Positions 35,712-44,304 of a stretch of 44,304 nt of DNA are shown here, piece by piece. The stretch is from an uncultured bacterium (GTDB lineage: Bacteria; Planctomycetota; Phycisphaerae; Phycisphaerales; SM1A02). A program made the translations under genes and the position numbers. Position 1 is the stretch's first letter. Each line of letters starts with the position of its first letter. Location: positions 1 to 44,304 of the forward strand of contig CAIWCL010000365.1 of assembly GCA_903911205.1 (NCBI GenBank), written 5' to 3'. The notes beneath the pieces were generated by a model, which was not told the origin of the DNA, did not search any database, and worked only from the letters and a program-made list of their open reading frames with translations.

Positions 35712-36458
35712 ATGCCTCAGGCCACGGACTTCTACGGCAACGGTTTCGGATCATCGAGCACATCCCGCGAACTTGAGCGGTTTGTGCGGCTTCTCATTCA
35801 AGGTGATCGCGTCGGCTGTCGCGATCTCATCCGCGAGTACCTCGACAGCCTCTCCCCGGGCGGCGGAGACGCGGCGGGCGCGCTGCGCGACCTCGCATGG
35901 CCCGCGTGCGCGACCTTGGATGCGCTCGCCCGTCGTGATCAGATCGGAAGCGCGGAGGAGCATTCTGCAACGGTGCTCCTCGCGCAACTCGTGCAACGCA
36001 TTGAGTGCGGACTGGCGAAGCGACCCGCGCGCTGCAAACTCTTGGTCGTTTCCACCGGGCCGCGTTCCACCGAAGAACTCTCGGGCGAGATCTTCTCGGG
36101 CCTCGCGGAGGCCGATGGATTCGATGTCCTCTATCTCGGTGGCGGGGTTGAGTCGGATGATTTGTTCTCGCAAATCGCTGCTCGCCGTCCCTCATACTTC
36201 GTGAGTTTCGCGGCCTCCGGACCAGACGCGCCTCGCCTTCGTCGCCTCATAACGGCCGTGCGAACCCAAGACCCTGTGCCGGGGATCCGGCTCGGTGTTG
36301 GCGCGGGGGTCTTCGAGCGGGCTCCCGGGCTCGGTGAGGAGATCGGCGCCGACTTTGAAGCCAATACGCCGTTCGAGATGCTTGCAGAACTGCAACGACT
36401 CGAGGCGTCGCAGGCGGCCTCGCGCCCCACGAAGTCGCCGCGCTCACGCGCGGCGTAG
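35712..36458 (+). CDS. B12-binding-fold protein without the cobalamin histidine motif
   Basis: 248 residues; GGAG about 8 nt upstream of the ATG. The first 95 residues are helical (ELERFVRLLIQGDRVGCRDLIREYLD, LDALARRDQIGSAEEHSATVLLAQLVQRIE), like the helical cap of cobalamin-binding modules. Residues about 105-235 resemble the Rossmann B12-binding domain (KLLVVSTGPRSTEELSGEIFSGLAEADGFDVLYLGGGVESDDLFSQIAARRPSYFVSFA), but the DxHxxG motif that coordinates cobalt is replaced by PRSTEEL. It is therefore probably a sensor or regulator that binds something else or acts by protein contacts. No DNA-binding domain is present. It is followed by a strong terminator and stands alone. Confidence 0.75.
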   Translation: MPQATDFYGNGFGSSSTSRELERFVRLLIQGDRVGCRDLIREYLDSLSPGGGDAAGALRDLAWPACATLDALARRDQIGSAEEHSATVLLAQLVQRIECGLAKRPARCKLLVVSTGPRSTEELSGEIFSGLAEADGFDVLYLGGGVESDDLFSQIAARRPSYFVSFAASGPDAPRLRRLITAVRTQDPVPGIRLGVGAGVFERAPGLGEEIGADFEANTPFEMLAELQRLEASQAASRPTKSPRSRAA

Positions 36459-36489
36459 GTTCGGAAGCCAAGACCAACGCTCGAATCGC

Positions 36490-36528
36490 GCAGAGCCCTC
36501 GCCGCCACCGAGGGCTCTGCGCCATTTT
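36490..36528 (+). terminator. Intrinsic terminator after the B12-fold gene
   Basis: A perfect 12-bp stem (GCAGAGCCCTCG at 36490-36501 with its complement at 36509-36520), a 7-nt loop and GCCATTTT downstream. The T-run is offset by four bases. Confidence 0.8.
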
Positions 36529-36621
36529 GATGTTGCCGCGGAGGTCCGGCAATCCGCAACGAACCCGGACGTTTGGTCGTCGTACCGAGAGGTCACAATC
36601 CGCAAATACCTGCGGAAGATC

Positions 36622-36650
36622 GGAACGCAGCGGAACGCCGCCCGTACACT
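36622..36650 (+). promoter_or_regulatory. Candidate ECF-type promoter of the sigma factor operon
   Basis: GGAAC (36622-36626), 16 nt and CGTAC (36643-36647) fit the GGAAC-N16/17-CGT plan known for ECF sigma factors, which suggests autoregulation. The same site also offers a housekeeping-like -10, TACACT (36645-36650). The ATG is 39 nt downstream. Confidence 0.4.
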
Positions 36651-36688
36651 CGGGGCCCCGGCTTCCCGTAGATCTCGAGAGGCTTCCC

Positions 36689-37270
36689 ATGCTTGACGCG
36701 AAGACCGAACGACTCACCATCCAGCGCGCGCGCCGCGGCGATCGCGAGGCGATCGCTGAGTTGATTCGTGCCTATCAACGGCCGTTGGAGTCCTTCATAT
36801 TCCGCCTGTGCGGAAAGTCTGAACTCGCGGAAGACATCGCGCAGGAAGCCTTCGTCCGAGTCATGAAGTCGCTCGACCGATTCGACGAGCGATTTCGATT
36901 TTCGACCTGGCTTTTCACCATCGGCAAGCGGCTTCTGGTCAATCATCATCAGAAGATGAGGCCATCCGCGGACAGCGAGACGGTTGAGTATCGCGCCGAT
37001 GATCATCGACGTCCCGAGCACGTGCTCGAAGAATTTGAACGCTCTGAGAAGATGGGAAAGATGATCGGTGTCGCGCTCGACGCGCTTGTCTCGCCGCAGA
37101 GGGAGATTGTCCTGCTCTTCCACCAGCAAGGCTGGCCAGTCGAGCGAATCGCGACCGAACTCTCCATGCCCGAAGGCACCGTGAAGAGCCATCTCTTCCG
37201 GGCGCGTCGGCGCATGCTTGAAGCGATCGAATTGAGCGGCACGCCCAATCCTCAAGAGGTCTTCCGATGA
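36689..37270 (+). CDS. ECF RNA polymerase sigma factor
   Basis: 193 residues from the ATG at 36689; GAGAGG lies about 8 nt upstream. Region 2 shows LIRAYQRPLESFIFRLCGKSELAEDIAQEAFVRVMKSLDRFD and STWLFTIGKRLLVNHHQK; region 4 shows LVSPQREIVLLFHQQGWPVERIATELSMPEGTVKSHLFRARRRML. It is first of an apparent operon with a membrane protein (4-nt ATGA overlap) and a large secreted protein. The upstream GGAAC/CGTAC pair suggests that it transcribes its own gene. Confidence 0.95.
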   Translation: MLDAKTERLTIQRARRGDREAIAELIRAYQRPLESFIFRLCGKSELAEDIAQEAFVRVMKSLDRFDERFRFSTWLFTIGKRLLVNHHQKMRPSADSETVEYRADDHRRPEHVLEEFERSEKMGKMIGVALDALVSPQREIVLLFHQQGWPVERIATELSMPEGTVKSHLFRARRRMLEAIELSGTPNPQEVFR

Positions 37271-37758
37271 GCGATTGGACCGACCTCTCTGAGGATGATG
37301 GTCGACACGGACCATCTGTTCGTGCGCAGCGTCTGCTGGTGCGAATGCTCTTGGCGCTCCGCCGCGAGTCGCGGCGAACCCAGAACCCCGATCGTGATTA
37401 CGAGCGCGCGGAACTGTTGGCGAACCGCATCATGGCGGAGTTTCCGCGACGCGTGCTTCCGGTTGGAGTCGCGGCGATGCTGGTGGTCGTGGTGTTCGCA
37501 TCATTTCCCCTCGTCCGCGATGTGCTTCCCGATGCAGCCGGCGGCGCGCAGCCCACGCCCGTTGCGACGGCAGTAGAGGCGGGGCTGCGACAGCAAGGAT
37601 CCGCGATGAGCGATGGCATTCAAGCGCTCCGCGCGATCGTTGGGCCGTTCTCTGCGCCGGCCAATGCACCGACCGAAGACCGTGCCACGCCGATCCTCGA
37701 GGATGAGGGCTCGCCGAAGCAATCCTCAGAAGCAACCGCACCCTTTCAGAAGAGTTGA
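37267..37758 (+). CDS. Single-pass membrane protein, possible anti-sigma factor
   Basis: 163 residues. A charged cytoplasmic N-terminal part (about 1-60, Arg-rich, RAQRLLVRMLLALRRESRR) is followed by one membrane helix (about 64-84, VLPVGVAAMLVVVVFASFPLV) and an extracytoplasmic Pro/Ala-rich tail. The gene overlaps the sigma factor stop by 4 nt, the arrangement usual for anti-sigma factors. The HxxxCxxC zinc motif of common anti-sigma domains is absent, so the role is inferred from position and topology only. Confidence 0.72.
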   Translation: MSDWTDLSEDDGRHGPSVRAQRLLVRMLLALRRESRRTQNPDRDYERAELLANRIMAEFPRRVLPVGVAAMLVVVVFASFPLVRDVLPDAAGGAQPTPVATAVEAGLRQQGSAMSDGIQALRAIVGPFSAPANAPTEDRATPILEDEGSPKQSSEATAPFQKS

Positions 37759-39662
37759 AAGCCACCGTGCGCGCTCTGCTGTCCGCATCTTTCTTGCCCA
37801 TGCAAACGGCGTATTCGCCAGCGCATGTACGGACGATTTCCTCGCGGAATTTACCGTGCGATCTTTCAAAGACGACGGTGACGGTTCTTCGCAGGGTACT
37901 GCGTCGTGCTTCGTGCGGTTGTTTCCGTGTGTTGCTCTGCGCGATCGTTTTCATCGCGCTTGCGCGAAGCGCGTTCGCCGACAATGCGGGGTTCGCGCTC
38001 GCGCCGAAGAGCTCTTCATTTGCATTTGACGCGCGCGGTCTCGCCGAACTCCTTGGCAATGAGAATGCCACCAGCATTCGGCCGATCGTAGAGGCCATCG
38101 CCGGACGCGATGCGCTCCTGACGTTCGATGCACTGGCGCGCCGCTGCAATGCCGGAACCGACACGGTCGCCCGTGAGGTTTTCGCAGGTCGAATCGCGTT
38201 CGCACTGGTCGAACTCGAAACCGCCAAGGGGTTGGACGGCGCGGAGCGACCAACTGCCAACTCTCGGATTTCCTCATGGATCTTCGGAATCGAGGCGGAC
38301 GATGACCGCTGCGAGCGTGTCTTGCGCATGATCGGCGCGCGACTCCGTGCGCCTGGGAGTTTTGAAGCTCCCACCGAGGGGCTACACGCGAGGCGCGTTG
38401 GCGGCTGGCTTCTCGTGGCACCCACCCCCAGTGCAGATCTTGTGCTCGATCAAGCCGCCAAGCGCATCGCCGTTGAGGATTCGGAGTCGAGTCTACTTGG
38501 CGAACCGCTCGCACAACATCTTCTCGTATCGGATGCGCCGCTTCGAGTCTTCATCCGTCACGATGCTCCGATCGGCGGCGCGACCGCCATTGGGATTCGG
38601 CCGAATCCCGCACCGGGTCAATCGGGCTTGCGTGCGGAAGTCGAAGGTCGCTACGACGACGCTCCGATCGGCGAGTCGGGTGTGAAGAATGCGCTCGACG
38701 CAGTGCTGATGCGGGCCTTTGAAGAGCGCGCGGTTTTCGCTGTCGCGAATCCAGCCGACGGTTTGCCTGATGCGAGCGATGCTTTTTGGCTTGCGCTCGT
38801 TCCTGAGTTGCGTCCCTCTCCAGCCATGCGTGCCAATCTTGCCGGCGAACGACTGCTCGTTGTTGGCGCTTCATCGCGCGTCATCGCACCCGCGATGGCC
38901 ATTGCCTGGCGTGTCGAGGACGCGGAACAGGCCGAACGCGATCAGCGACTGCAAATGCGCGGCATTCTTTGCGGAATCGCTCGCGCGACAGAGCACGGCG
39001 CGACCGCGCGTCGCAACGGCCAGGAGGTCTCGGACGAAGCACGCGAACGCACGACCGCCACGCGAATCCACCCTTCTCGACAGGATTCCTCAGGACACGA
39101 TTCGTCAGGACAGGATTCATCAGGACAGGCGTCTTCAGAACAGGCGTCTTCAGAACAGGAATTGGGACAGGATCACTCTGGAAGTGCCCTCGGTCCGTTC
39201 CTCGAGAAGTACATCGGTCGGCCATTTCGACTTGGCGATTGCGTCCTCTGTTGGAGCACCGTGCGTACACCATGCGGTGGTTGGCAGGTGTACGCGAGTG
39301 ATACCGAGTGGCTCGGTGATGTTGCGTCACGGCTCGAAGCTTCGAGCTGCGCGGAAGAAGGAAAGACGCCGGCAGGTGGCATCGGTTTCTGTGATGGGCC
39401 ACGCGCCGCGAGCGTTTTGCGACGTTGGCGACCACTCGCCGGTGAAGACGCGAATGACCGCGTGGGCCGCGGTATCGAGGCACTCGCGGCAACGATCGAA
39501 CAACTTGGCCGCTTGCGCTTCACCTACGAGTCGCCGGCACCTGGACGCTTGGTTGCCCGCATTGACCTCGAACCGCTCGGCACGCTCGGTGCCACTCGCC
39601 GATCGGACGATTCGAGTGAAGTTCCGCCTCGCCCGCTCATGAAACGGGACGGTCCTCGTTAG
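37755..39662 (+). CDS. Large exported protein of unknown function in the ECF operon
   Basis: 635 residues if the TTG at 37755 is used (4-nt TTGA overlap with the previous stop); GTG 37767 or ATG 37800 are alternatives. A long basic N-terminus leads to a hydrophobic signal segment (VLLCAIVFIALARSAFA, about 58-74), so export is likely. The mature part has alternating helices and strands (FAFDARGLAELLGNENATSIRPIVEAIAGRDALLTFDALARRC, WLLVAPTPSADLVLDQAAKRIA) reminiscent of DUF3352-like proteins, but the resemblance is weak. A low-complexity insert (DSSGQ/ASSEQ pentads, about 443-472) is coded by a 15-bp repeat. Co-transcription with the ECF sigma factor suggests it is part of the stress response or signal chain. 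Confidence 0.7.
   Translation: MKATVRALLSASFLPMQTAYSPAHVRTISSRNLPCDLSKTTVTVLRRVLRRASCGCFRVLLCAIVFIALARSAFADNAGFALAPKSSSFAFDARGLAELLGNENATSIRPIVEAIAGRDALLTFDALARRCNAGTDTVAREVFAGRIAFALVELETAKGLDGAERPTANSRISSWIFGIEADDDRCERVLRMIGARLRAPGSFEAPTEGLHARRVGGWLLVAPTPSADLVLDQAAKRIAVEDSESSLLGEPLAQHLLVSDAPLRVFIRHDAPIGGATAIGIRPNPAPGQSGLRAEVEGRYDDAPIGESGVKNALDAVLMRAFEERAVFAVANPADGLPDASDAFWLALVPELRPSPAMRANLAGERLLVVGASSRVIAPAMAIAWRVEDAEQAERDQRLQMRGILCGIARATEHGATARRNGQEVSDEARERTTATRIHPSRQDSSGHDSSGQDSSGQASSEQASSEQELGQDHSGSALGPFLEKYIGRPFRLGDCVLCWSTVRTPCGGWQVYASDTEWLGDVASRLEASSCAEEGKTPAGGIGFCDGPRAASVLRRWRPLAGEDANDRVGRGIEALAATIEQLGRLRFTYESPAPGRLVARIDLEPLGTLGATRRSDDSSEVPPRPLMKRDGPR
39081..39170. repeat. 15-bp in-frame tandem repeat coding for Ser/Gln-rich pentads
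   Basis: Units start at 39081 (CAGGATTCCTCAGGA), 39096, 39111, 39126 and 39141 (CAGGCGTCTTCAGAA twice), then degrade. The frame is kept, giving QDSSG/HDSSG/QASSE pentapeptides in a linker of the exported protein. Confidence 0.9.
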
Positions 39663-40761: not shown

Positions 40762-41754
40762 TTACGGCGCCAACAAACACTCGCCCTTGAATCGGTCGCT
40801 CACGCACGTTACGACGCCATCTTCGATCTTGATCACCATCGGACTTGCCACGAGATAGTTGGGACCAGGCGGTAGCAGTAGAGGCTCGCATCCAACACAG
40901 ACGATGGGTTCATGCGCTTCGCCGCTCTCCACCTGCGGCACCCCATTGGCTGGCGGAATCTCAACCGTCAAGACCTGCTCGAGCCGCGGTGCAGAGAAGA
41001 ACTGGTCAAACAGCGAGTGGCACGCGCTGCAATCTGGCATGTAGAAGACAACAAAGGTCGTCACTCCTCGAGTTCGCGCGGCAAGCGAAGGTAACGACGC
41101 ACCGATCGGCGTCTCTTCGACGCGACGCCCCACGAAGGGATGCATGTCGAAGTCGACGTTGACGACCTTCGGTATCGAAACCTTCGGCGCGCTCTCCGAA
41201 GGGCGCGAAGGATCGGTTTCCCTCGCAGCGACCGCCCCAGTGATGGTCGCAATAGCGATGGCGCTGAGCGCAGTCCACGCGGGCGAGAGCCCGCGACGCC
41301 CCATTCGATTGATCGCGATGGATCGCATGGAGAGCACGCTGCATGCCGTAAAGACGACAAAACTCGTGGCCGGATATCCCATGCCCCCGGCGCTCAATGC
41401 GCGTGAAATGCATGCGAGCGAAACGAACGCGCCGAGCGACGCCGCGACTGTCGGTAGAAATCGGTTTCCGAAGCCAACGCCGAAGAAGAGGACGATCAGT
41501 GCACCTGCGAGTGTTGACGAGGAGAGGAGTCGGCCGGCCAGTTCAGGTGTGTATCCGAACAGTGCATCGAGCAATGCAACGAGCGGCGCGGGAACGGAGT
41601 TCGGGATGTCACGAAACTGTAGTACCGCGGTCACGACCAAAAAGAGCGCAACGATCGCTGCAGTGACGCGTGGTCGCCGCAAGAAAGGAACCGTGGGATG
41701 TTCGCCATCGGTCATCGCGCTTTGCATGGATGTTGAGGAGTTTGGGGACTTCAT
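40762..41754 (-). CDS. Membrane protein with one double-CxxC thioredoxin-like module
   Basis: 330 residues from the ATG at 41754 (GGAGAG upstream); a frame to 41829 would overlap the upstream stop. About five membrane helices (starting near residues 30, 80, 98, 128 and 158) are followed by an extracytoplasmic module (about 200-330). The module has a first pair DCSACHS (near 241), then a second pair CVGC (near 287), then LPPGPNYLVASPMVIKIEDGVVTCV. The same order occurs twice in the upstream gene at 41808, 53 bp away on the same strand, so the two form an operon of related redox proteins. The fold and partner are inferred; no family name was recognised. Confidence 0.78.
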   Translation of the reverse strand: MKSPNSSTSMQSAMTDGEHPTVPFLRRPRVTAAIVALFLVVTAVLQFRDIPNSVPAPLVALLDALFGYTPELAGRLLSSSTLAGALIVLFFGVGFGNRFLPTVAASLGAFVSLACISRALSAGGMGYPATSFVVFTACSVLSMRSIAINRMGRRGLSPAWTALSAIAIATITGAVAARETDPSRPSESAPKVSIPKVVNVDFDMHPFVGRRVEETPIGASLPSLAARTRGVTTFVVFYMPDCSACHSLFDQFFSAPRLEQVLTVEIPPANGVPQVESGEAHEPIVCVGCEPLLLPPGPNYLVASPMVIKIEDGVVTCVSDRFKGECLLAP

Positions 41755-41807
41755 AGGGCGAGACTCTCCGCGCAAAGCGTGCACTCCAACATCGCGTCGG
41801 TCCCGCG

Positions 41808-43508
41808 TCACTCGTTGAACTTCAAGCACGCCTCAAGCGCTGCCATGTCATCGACATTCTCCACAACGCACTCGACGACGCCGTCGTTGATCGCCAGTAC
41901 CACCGGCGTTGCGATCACGTAATTCGGGCCCTTGACGAGCGAAACCTTGGCGCACGCATCACAGGGGTTCCCGAGCAGACTGTTCGGATCGGCGTCGGGA
42001 ATCGCGACGGTCAACGTCGGGTACTTCAACGTTCCGGTGAAGTGCGTCGAGAGCAACTCAAAGCAGTGATCGCAATCCTCGCGGAAGAACACCACAATCC
42101 AACGACCCTTCAGGAAGTTTGCTGGGAGCTTGTTCTCCATCAGGAGCGCAAACGGGTTGTCGCTCAATTTCTTCCCGACGGCGTCGGTGAACTCCGCGAC
42201 GTAGAAACTCTTCAGCGTGGTGGGAGGCCCAGGCCAGACGGCCTCTTGAGGGGCTGGAACAACGGGCGGTGTTGGCGTTTCGGTTGTTGCCGTTCCGGCC
42301 GCTCCGGGGCCGTCGGCGGCCGTGGACGCATTCGCGCTCGGGAAGACCGCGTTGAACTCCTCAACGTTCGCACGGTCGGTGCAAACGCCCGTGACAATGC
42401 CATCCTTCATGCGAACGATGATGGGCGTGCGGAAGACGTACTCGGGGCTCTTTCCTGTTTCGCCCGCGCGAACATGGAACAACTTGCGTTCCTCGCAGCC
42501 GTTGCAGGGCATCCCGAGCGGCGTCCCGCGCGCGTCAGGAACATTGACCTTCAGGACGCGTTCCTTTCGCGGCTCGGCGAAATACGCGCGGTACATCGAC
42601 TGACAATCAGAGCAGTCCTGCCGTGAGAAAACGATGAGCCACTCGCCCTTTTCAAAGTCCGCAGGCATCGGCCCTTCGATGGCGCGTGCGAGTTTCTGAT
42701 CGCGCAACGGTTGTCCGACCCAATCCTTCCAACGCGGGAAGTAGTTCTTGTCGTACTTCGTCGGCGCACCTGGCCAAGGGCCTTGGATTTTGCCTGAGCC
42801 TGTGGCCGCACTTGTCGTTGGGTTGGCGGTGGCGGACTGCGTGCCTCCATCGGGTGTCGTCGCGCCGGACTGCGTGCTGTTGTTGTCCGGCATCGGCGCG
42901 GCGACTTCAGGTTCGCGAATCGCGAAGACTGCGATGAGCCCGACGGCGCATGTCGCCATGATCGGCGTAAGCGATCCACTGCGCCCGCGCGGCACCAAGA
43001 AGAGCGCATTCAAAAGAAGCAGGCCGTCAATCGAGAACATCACACTCGCGGGAAGGCCTTTCTCGCCGAAGCAGCCACAACCGCCTGTCAACGCTTCCAC
43101 GATGCCATCCTTCATGGCAGTCGTCGCCATCGCATACGCGAGAATCGCGCAGAAGAGGGCAAGCGTCAGAATTGCGAGAAGTCGCGCGTATCGCGTGGAG
43201 AGGAGGATCGCGAGCGCAATGAAGATCTCCGCGCCGATGATCGTGCGGAGCGACCACGTCATCAGAAGATCTGGATCGACCGAGGTCGACTTCATCACCC
43301 ACTGAAGGAGCGACAGGATTGGCCCGGGGAGAAGGTTCGGGTTGAACTCCAATGCCTTCATGAGCGCGCCGTAACCGATCCAACCGGCGGTTCCGACGTG
43401 CAGCATCCCGAGTGCCGCGGTTTGCAAACCTGTTCGGCGGGAATCAGCGGGTGCCCCCGTGGCTGCGGAGGTCGTCGCGGAGGTTTGAGAGGTCGTCGGT
43501 TTCGTCAT
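41808..43508 (-). CDS. MauE/DoxX-like membrane protein fused to two double-CxxC thioredoxin-like modules
   Basis: 566 residues from the ATG at 43508; a longer frame to 43760 enters the divergent gene. Residues about 30-190 contain four or more membrane helices with a GGCGCFGEKG motif (near 143), as in MauE/DoxX-type proteins that work with thiol systems. After a Pro/Thr/Ala linker come two modules. Module 1: IVFSRQDCSDCQSMY (near 298), then MPCNGC (near 333) and TPIIVRMKDGIVTGV. Module 2: VVFFREDCDHCFELL (near 478), then NPCDAC (near 513) and GPNYVIATPVVLAINDGVVECV. Each module has a TRP-like WPG-P-T lead sequence. The plan suggests relay of electrons between membrane and periplasmic thiols. 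The substrate is unknown. Confidence 0.8.
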   Translation of the reverse strand: MTKPTTSQTSATTSAATGAPADSRRTGLQTAALGMLHVGTAGWIGYGALMKALEFNPNLLPGPILSLLQWVMKSTSVDPDLLMTWSLRTIIGAEIFIALAILLSTRYARLLAILTLALFCAILAYAMATTAMKDGIVEALTGGCGCFGEKGLPASVMFSIDGLLLLNALFLVPRGRSGSLTPIMATCAVGLIAVFAIREPEVAAPMPDNNSTQSGATTPDGGTQSATANPTTSAATGSGKIQGPWPGAPTKYDKNYFPRWKDWVGQPLRDQKLARAIEGPMPADFEKGEWLIVFSRQDCSDCQSMYRAYFAEPRKERVLKVNVPDARGTPLGMPCNGCEERKLFHVRAGETGKSPEYVFRTPIIVRMKDGIVTGVCTDRANVEEFNAVFPSANASTAADGPGAAGTATTETPTPPVVPAPQEAVWPGPPTTLKSFYVAEFTDAVGKKLSDNPFALLMENKLPANFLKGRWIVVFFREDCDHCFELLSTHFTGTLKYPTLTVAIPDADPNSLLGNPCDACAKVSLVKGPNYVIATPVVLAINDGVVECVVENVDDMAALEACLKFNE

Positions 43509-43731
43509 TGGGAGTTCGAAGTGTGAGGATCCGTGGATCGCGGACGGTGGAGGGGTGCGCGGTATCCCGGTGGATGTCGTCCAAAGAGGGCCGGATTCTA
43601 CGGAAGAGCCTGAGAAGAGTTTCGAAACGGGAGGATTTGGACGCGCGAACCAATCGAGCGCGTCCTTGATTCCTCGGGGACCAATCGCGCGGGCGCATCT
43701 ATCGTGCGATCGCGGGCGAAACCCGCCCTCC

Positions 43732-44304
43732 ATGGCTGAGCGCTCCCGTCCGTTTGCCAACGAAGTGTTCGCCGCAGAGTTGGCAGCGCGGTCTCAATCC
43801 GCGTCTCAATCCGCGTCTCAATCCGGTCTGCATTCGAGCGTTGGCAGTGCGCCTCGGGCGCCTCGCGCGAGTGTCAGTGCCAAGGCGATCGCCCGACCGC
43901 GGGAGCGCGTCGTCGTCGTACTGCCCGACCAATTGAGCCTCGAGATCGGGCCCACCGCACGTTCGGAGCCGCGGGCGACGCGCATCGTGCTCCTTGAAAG
44001 CGGTGAGTGGTTTGCGCGGCGGCCGTATCACCGACAGCGACTGGCGTGGATCCTGCTTTCTCAGCGGAAATTCGCGCTTGAGGCCGCCGACCATGGGTTC
44101 GAGGTCGAGGTTCTTTCGGGCGACGAGCCGATGGTCGACCTTCTTCGGCCCTACCTCGATGCGCACGGGGCTGCCACCTGCATGGAGCCCGCGGAACGGG
44201 AGATGCGCACCGAGCTCGCGCCGCTTGTTACGGCGGGAATGCTTGTGCTTGAGCCGCACGACGGCTTCCTCACGTCCGCGATCGATCTTGAAGCCGGTCG
44301 AACC
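43732..44304 (+). CDS. Cryptochrome/photolyase-related protein (DPRP), 5' part
   Basis: The frame is open to the window edge (191 codons). After a Ser/Gln/Ala-rich N-terminal extension (about 1-58, SQSA repeats), the sequence reads RVVVVLPDQLSLEIGPTA, RIVLLESGEWFARRPYHRQRLAWILLSQRKFALEAADHGFEVEVL, LLRPYLDAHGAATCMEPAEREMR and VLEPHDGFLTSAIDLEAG, which fits the N-terminal domain of deoxyribodipyrimidine photolyase-related proteins. Members characterised so far are FeS-containing (6-4) photolyases with flavin and lumazine; the iron-sulfur cysteines would be in the missing C-terminal part. A TATCGT at 43700-43705 may be its -10. It diverges from the double-CxxC operon. Confidence 0.8.
   Translation, partial: MAERSRPFANEVFAAELAARSQSASQSASQSGLHSSVGSAPRAPRASVSAKAIARPRERVVVVLPDQLSLEIGPTARSEPRATRIVLLESGEWFARRPYHRQRLAWILLSQRKFALEAADHGFEVEVLSGDEPMVDLLRPYLDAHGAATCMEPAEREMRTELAPLVTAGMLVLEPHDGFLTSAIDLEAGRT
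43791..43826. repeat. 12-bp in-frame tandem repeat coding for Ser-Gln-Ser-Ala
   Basis: GTCTCAATCCGC at 43791 and 43803 and GTCTCAATCCGG at 43815 give SQSASQSASQSG near the N-terminus of the DPRP gene. Confidence 0.92.

Follow-up and report, generated by a model that had tools for sequence, protein, structure and literature searches.

The analysed window, a 44,304-nt stretch, forms contig 365 in the 3.9 Mb genome of an uncultured planctomycete and contains two adjacent minus-strand genes, A and B (together 40762–43508), whose products join a membrane domain to thioredoxin-like modules with two CxxC pairs each. We give an about even chance to the reading that they act as a membrane-anchored thiol-disulfide exchange pair on the outer side of the inner membrane, of the MauE type and with an extra internal cysteine pair in every module; they probably represent a local version of the machinery that carries electrons to or from disulfide bonds. 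A sequence-only reading of the window had described two neighbouring genes with three such modules, one copy in one protein and two in the other, each with a TP and a DGVV strand behind the second pair. Both open reading frames bear this out, and the strand appears in all three modules as [TS]P followed by a D-G-[IV]-V turn. The distance from the first to the second pair is 32, 33 and 40 residues in the three modules, and the start codon of gene B is uncertain (ATG at 41754, 41727 or 41715).

Features of the A/B locus, with window coordinates and the basis of each assignment
Feature	Coordinates	Strand	Basis or remark
Gene A: MauE/DoxX-type membrane domain and two thioredoxin-like modules	41808..43508	(-)	566 aa; ORF and homologues
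Gene A membrane domain, five predicted helices, N-in/C-out	42921..43430	(-)	AF2 helices, loop charge, weak PF07291 match
CGCFG in outward loop of gene A (residues 144-148)	43065..43079	(-)	C144 and C146 in 58/58 homologues
Gene A module 1	42357..42764	(-)	AF2 model; a first module occurs only in the genus of the window, a sister genus and a few others
Module 1 pair 1, CSDC (residues 299-302)	42603..42614	(-)	
Module 1 pair 2, CNGC (residues 335-338)	42495..42506	(-)	
Gene A module 2, C-terminal, in every gene A relative	41811..42221	(-)	AF2 model, homologues
Module 2 pair 1, CDHC (residues 479-482)	42063..42074	(-)	58/58 homologues
Module 2 pair 2, CDAC (residues 516-519)	41952..41963	(-)	57/58 homologues
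Gene B: membrane domain without conserved Cys and one module	40762..41754	(-)	ORF
Gene B membrane domain, homologous to that of gene A, without CGCFG loop	41221..41688	(-)	hhalign, no conserved Cys, NACHO/TMEM35A match
Gene B thioredoxin-like module	40765..41166	(-)	Alignment, AF2 model, VIA
Gene B pair 1, CSAC	41020..41031	(-)	47/47
Gene B pair 2, CVGC	40888..40899	(-)	47/47
Gene B third cysteine pair, C-x8-C near C-terminus	40777..40806	(-)	47/47

Gene A combines the features of MauE, a helical membrane domain (from the AF2 helices) and an invariant CGC loop. In the Pfam scan PF07291 (MauE) matched gene A at 20.1 bits, below the 27-bit cut-off, and relatives of the same architecture (L123, L129, L136) at 32–39.5 bits, above it. 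For both proteins the positive-inside distribution of loop charges favours five helices with an N-in/C-out topology, which would place the CGCFG motif and the modules on the outer side. The same scan found no match in gene A or B to the DsbD transmembrane family PF02683 or to the VKOR family PF07884, and the genome scan found no VKOR at the A/B locus; the DsbB family PF02600 has no match in the window and a single one in the source genome, on contig C41. The MauE-type motif proposed from sequence thus holds for gene A, but the two membrane domains, taken then to be different, are homologous by profile-profile comparison (hhalign 95.7%, E 9.5e-9), that of gene B lacking the CGCFG loop. By sequence, gene B is a paralogue of gene A whose membrane domain lost this loop, and it lies directly downstream of gene A in nearly all examined loci that hold it. 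The helical arrangement of its membrane part resembles that of NACHO/TMEM35A, a DoxX-like fold without known redox role, at a VIA Z of 8.9 over 120 residues (rmsd 4.0), where values below 13 are weak evidence for helical bundles.

AF2 models built from 47 sequences for B and 58 for A both had a mean pLDDT of 84.8, most residues of the modules exceeding 90, and gave the modules a thioredoxin fold, in agreement with their description from sequence. VIA-align matched them to FetE, ResA, CcmG and DsbE-like structures with Z of 8–10 and rmsd of about 3–4; Foldseek returned no match under E 0.001, its top matches still being thioredoxin-fold proteins, and a PDB sequence search returned short matches around CxxC only. 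Membership of the thioredoxin superfamily is further indicated by the CxxC before the long helix and by the TP of the putative cis-Pro loop, which is invariant in the A alignment. The models place pair 1 as thioredoxins do, at the N-terminal start of the first long helix and behind a strand; pair 2 falls within a long loop that follows strand 3, just ahead of an additional short strand. Because the end of the loop leaving strand 3 sits at the active-site edge in thioredoxins, these models suggest that pair 2 is probably near pair 1. TlpA/ResA/CcmG/DsbE-type proteins and FetE thus share the fold, whereas in the A/B modules the loop with the second CxxC takes the place of the third helix of thioredoxin, and the modules are sited behind a membrane domain. 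FetE, the top Foldseek match, was considered as a precedent for two pairs and rejected, as it has a single CxxC, CPSC (PMC10783030). We also rejected heme attachment at the CxxCH found in some modules, because the histidine behind the second cysteine is not kept (CDHCF and CSDCQ in the window).

Of the 147 modules at 79 named loci, 143 retain both CxxC pairs. The loci belong to Phycisphaerales-type Planctomycetota, represented almost entirely by metagenome assemblies, and in six cases to Acidobacteriota, for example L118 (Candidatus Sulfomarinibacter). With 57/58 in A and 47/47 in B, this conservation answers the objection, raised in the sequence-only reading itself, that the second pair might not be kept in homologues. 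As the mean column identity of the gene A alignment is only 25%, the invariance of the pairs does not reflect general similarity or chance. The second pair is missing in L075 and G171 (both A modules), in the A protein of G102, and in an additional module-only gene that some genomes carry. In one genus such a gene lies between A and B (L187:2757-3440, also in L188, L194 and L195), with a single CEHC and a frame without the CGC membrane motif.

These patterns bear on a structural explanation, in which pair 2 and C-x8-C would be stabilising disulfides of an exposed domain, pair 1 alone would be reactive, and A and B would be ordinary MauE-thioredoxin fusions. We regard it as a weaker candidate, with something like a one-in-four chance. 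It fits the members of the wider family without pair 2, the A proteins named above that are kept after losing it, and the third invariant pair of B near the C-terminus, which brings the B module to six invariant cysteines in all 47 aligned proteins and is possibly a structural disulfide. Pair 2 is, however, conserved to about the same degree as pair 1 in A and B while the neighbouring sequence drifts, and CxxC disulfides are seldom purely structural.

Nearly every sampled member of the window's bacterial family has a relative of gene A; such relatives are rare elsewhere in the order. Outside this family, in further Phycisphaerae families and in other planctomycete classes, we found a CGC[FLM]G membrane domain joined to a thioredoxin-like module with one CxxC. 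Several of these single-CxxC relatives retain one cysteine near the position of pair 2, and some exceed the Pfam cut-off for MauE. Since these distant planctomycete relatives are the same fusion with one CxxC, pair 2 is, on sequence comparison, a lineage addition to the known MauE-thioredoxin architecture and not a new class. MauE (PF07291) and the MauE-thioredoxin fusions share with gene A the type of membrane domain and the CGC[FL]G loop; the fusions mostly have one CxxC in wider relatives, against two per module in A and B. A second worry of the sequence-only reading, that the modules belong to a known single-CxxC family, is thereby half borne out: they are related to a widespread fusion of that kind. 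In a FastTree tree of the modules nearly all two-pair modules cluster, those of gene B make up a single clade (support 0.99), and the window's gene A has its two modules in separate clades. Most genera have one A module; two are found in the window's genus, the sister genus and a few others. Gene A with pair 2 also occurs in genomes without B, so pair 2 probably preceded gene B. No plasmid-borne copies were found.

A four-cysteine site is the basis of a metal-binding alternative, in which both pairs of a module would jointly bind zinc, copper or an iron-sulfur centre as a metal carrier or structural site. The spacing CxxC-x32-40-CxxC resembles the cysteine layout of a zinc ribbon, and one relative has a weak MJ0042 zinc-finger match, though below the cut-off. 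Pair 1, by contrast, is modelled at a helix start as in thioredoxins and is kept alone in many relatives, which argues against its origin as one half of a four-cysteine site; together with the CGC motif on the membrane partner, this makes metal binding improbable in our view.

For the thiol-disulfide exchange pair that we favour, we envisage electron exchange between the CGC loop of A and pair 1, the pair at the thioredoxin active site; pair 2 would exchange with pair 1 and pass the charge to a partner, foremost the B module, or to clients; this chain from CGC loop through pair 1 and pair 2 to B or clients may run in either direction. As B has no conserved membrane cysteines, its module must be served by A or by another protein. 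The role is likely the oxidation or isomerisation of disulfides in exported proteins. In DsbD/CcdA the membrane part hands electrons to outward thioredoxin domains, and the sequence-only reading had drawn a DsbD likeness, which proved weaker than suggested: A and B lack the DsbD membrane family, and a separate DsbD gene is present in the source genome (contig C210). MauE has a suspected role in disulfide formation, according to a passage in PMC7794033 citing van der Palen 1997, so the MauE analogy would fit either electron direction. A literature search for MauE together with DoxX and thioredoxin found no paper in the library searched. Disulfide formation outside the membrane seems little studied in Planctomycetota. 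If A and B form disulfides, this would widen the role of MauE-type proteins from methylamine dehydrogenase to a general one, and the module with two pairs, if our reading is true, would be a compact natural relay within a single thioredoxin fold. That A and B instead serve one exported cysteine-rich protein, as MauE and MauD serve methylamine dehydrogenase in Paracoccus according to the same passage (PMC7794033, citing van der Palen 1997), is very unlikely, since the Mau system occurs with that enzyme whereas its light chain PF02975 has no match over cut-off in 51 genomes of the A/B family, and A is near universal there, amid unrelated neighbours and with no conserved client gene nearby.

Other disulfide genes were surveyed in the same family. 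The DsbD membrane family was found in 46/46 sampled genomes, DsbB in 14 and VKOR over cut-off in 12. In the nine genomes checked, VKOR and a DsbA-like domain (PF13462) share one open frame of 600–670 aa, a VKOR-DsbA fusion (G018:C44, G066:C31, G069:C41, G075:C15, G084:C23, G105:C92, G111:C148, G132:C22 and G147:C1). Like A and B in the favoured reading, this fusion joins a membrane electron carrier to a thioredoxin-fold domain in the same bacterial family; A and B differ from it in having no VKOR match and, in gene A, a membrane motif that is a CGC in a loop. In the window's own genome a short sequence (G000:C206:26958-27152) resembles VKOR weakly and contains an in-frame TGA; it could be a remnant or a stray contig.

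Gene B is anti-correlated with the DsbA-like family PF13462 (both in 4 genomes, B only in 12, DsbA only in 17, neither in 6; Fisher p=0.004, one genome per genus of the family) and, within the family, with VKOR (3, 27, 9 and 7 in the same order, p=0.001); the presence of B was read from the loci of the order sample for the VKOR table and determined separately for the DsbA-like table. No association was seen with DsbB (p=0.32). Neither VKOR nor DsbB was over threshold in 18/30 genomes with gene B in the sampled family, and some B-bearing genomes retain one or the other. Mapped on the tree of gene A, B shows about one gain, with early members of the clade still carrying the fusion and later ones mostly without it; sporadic absences of the fusion occur outside the B clade too, and VKOR losses are few. 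Because about one gain of B and few losses of VKOR underlie them, the p-values overstate the evidence, and we treat the anti-correlation of B with the VKOR-DsbA fusion as a lead. A bolder proposal, that A and B are a disulfide-forming system not described before, with two-CxxC modules driven by a MauE-type CGC loop, and that it replaced the fusion in part of one planctomycete family, we consider doubtful. A link to cytochrome c maturation, one of the checks suggested from sequence, was rejected, as ResB matches are scattered (11/51 family genomes).

Across the 79 loci no redox gene is a conserved neighbour of A and B; the surroundings comprise TilS, photolyase, SIS-domain, epimerase and MFS genes. 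TilS, photolyase and others were rejected as operon partners and look like inherited gene order. In the window, the start of a photolyase-related (DPRP) gene (43555–44304, plus strand) diverges from gene A, and photolyase-type genes are often near A/B in relatives. Two further plus-strand frames were observed in the window: a 635 aa open frame without Pfam match that contains a run of DSSGQ/ASSEQ-like repeats (37755–39662), and a gene with weak matches to B12-binding domains immediately ahead of an ECF-type sigma factor gene (35712–37270).
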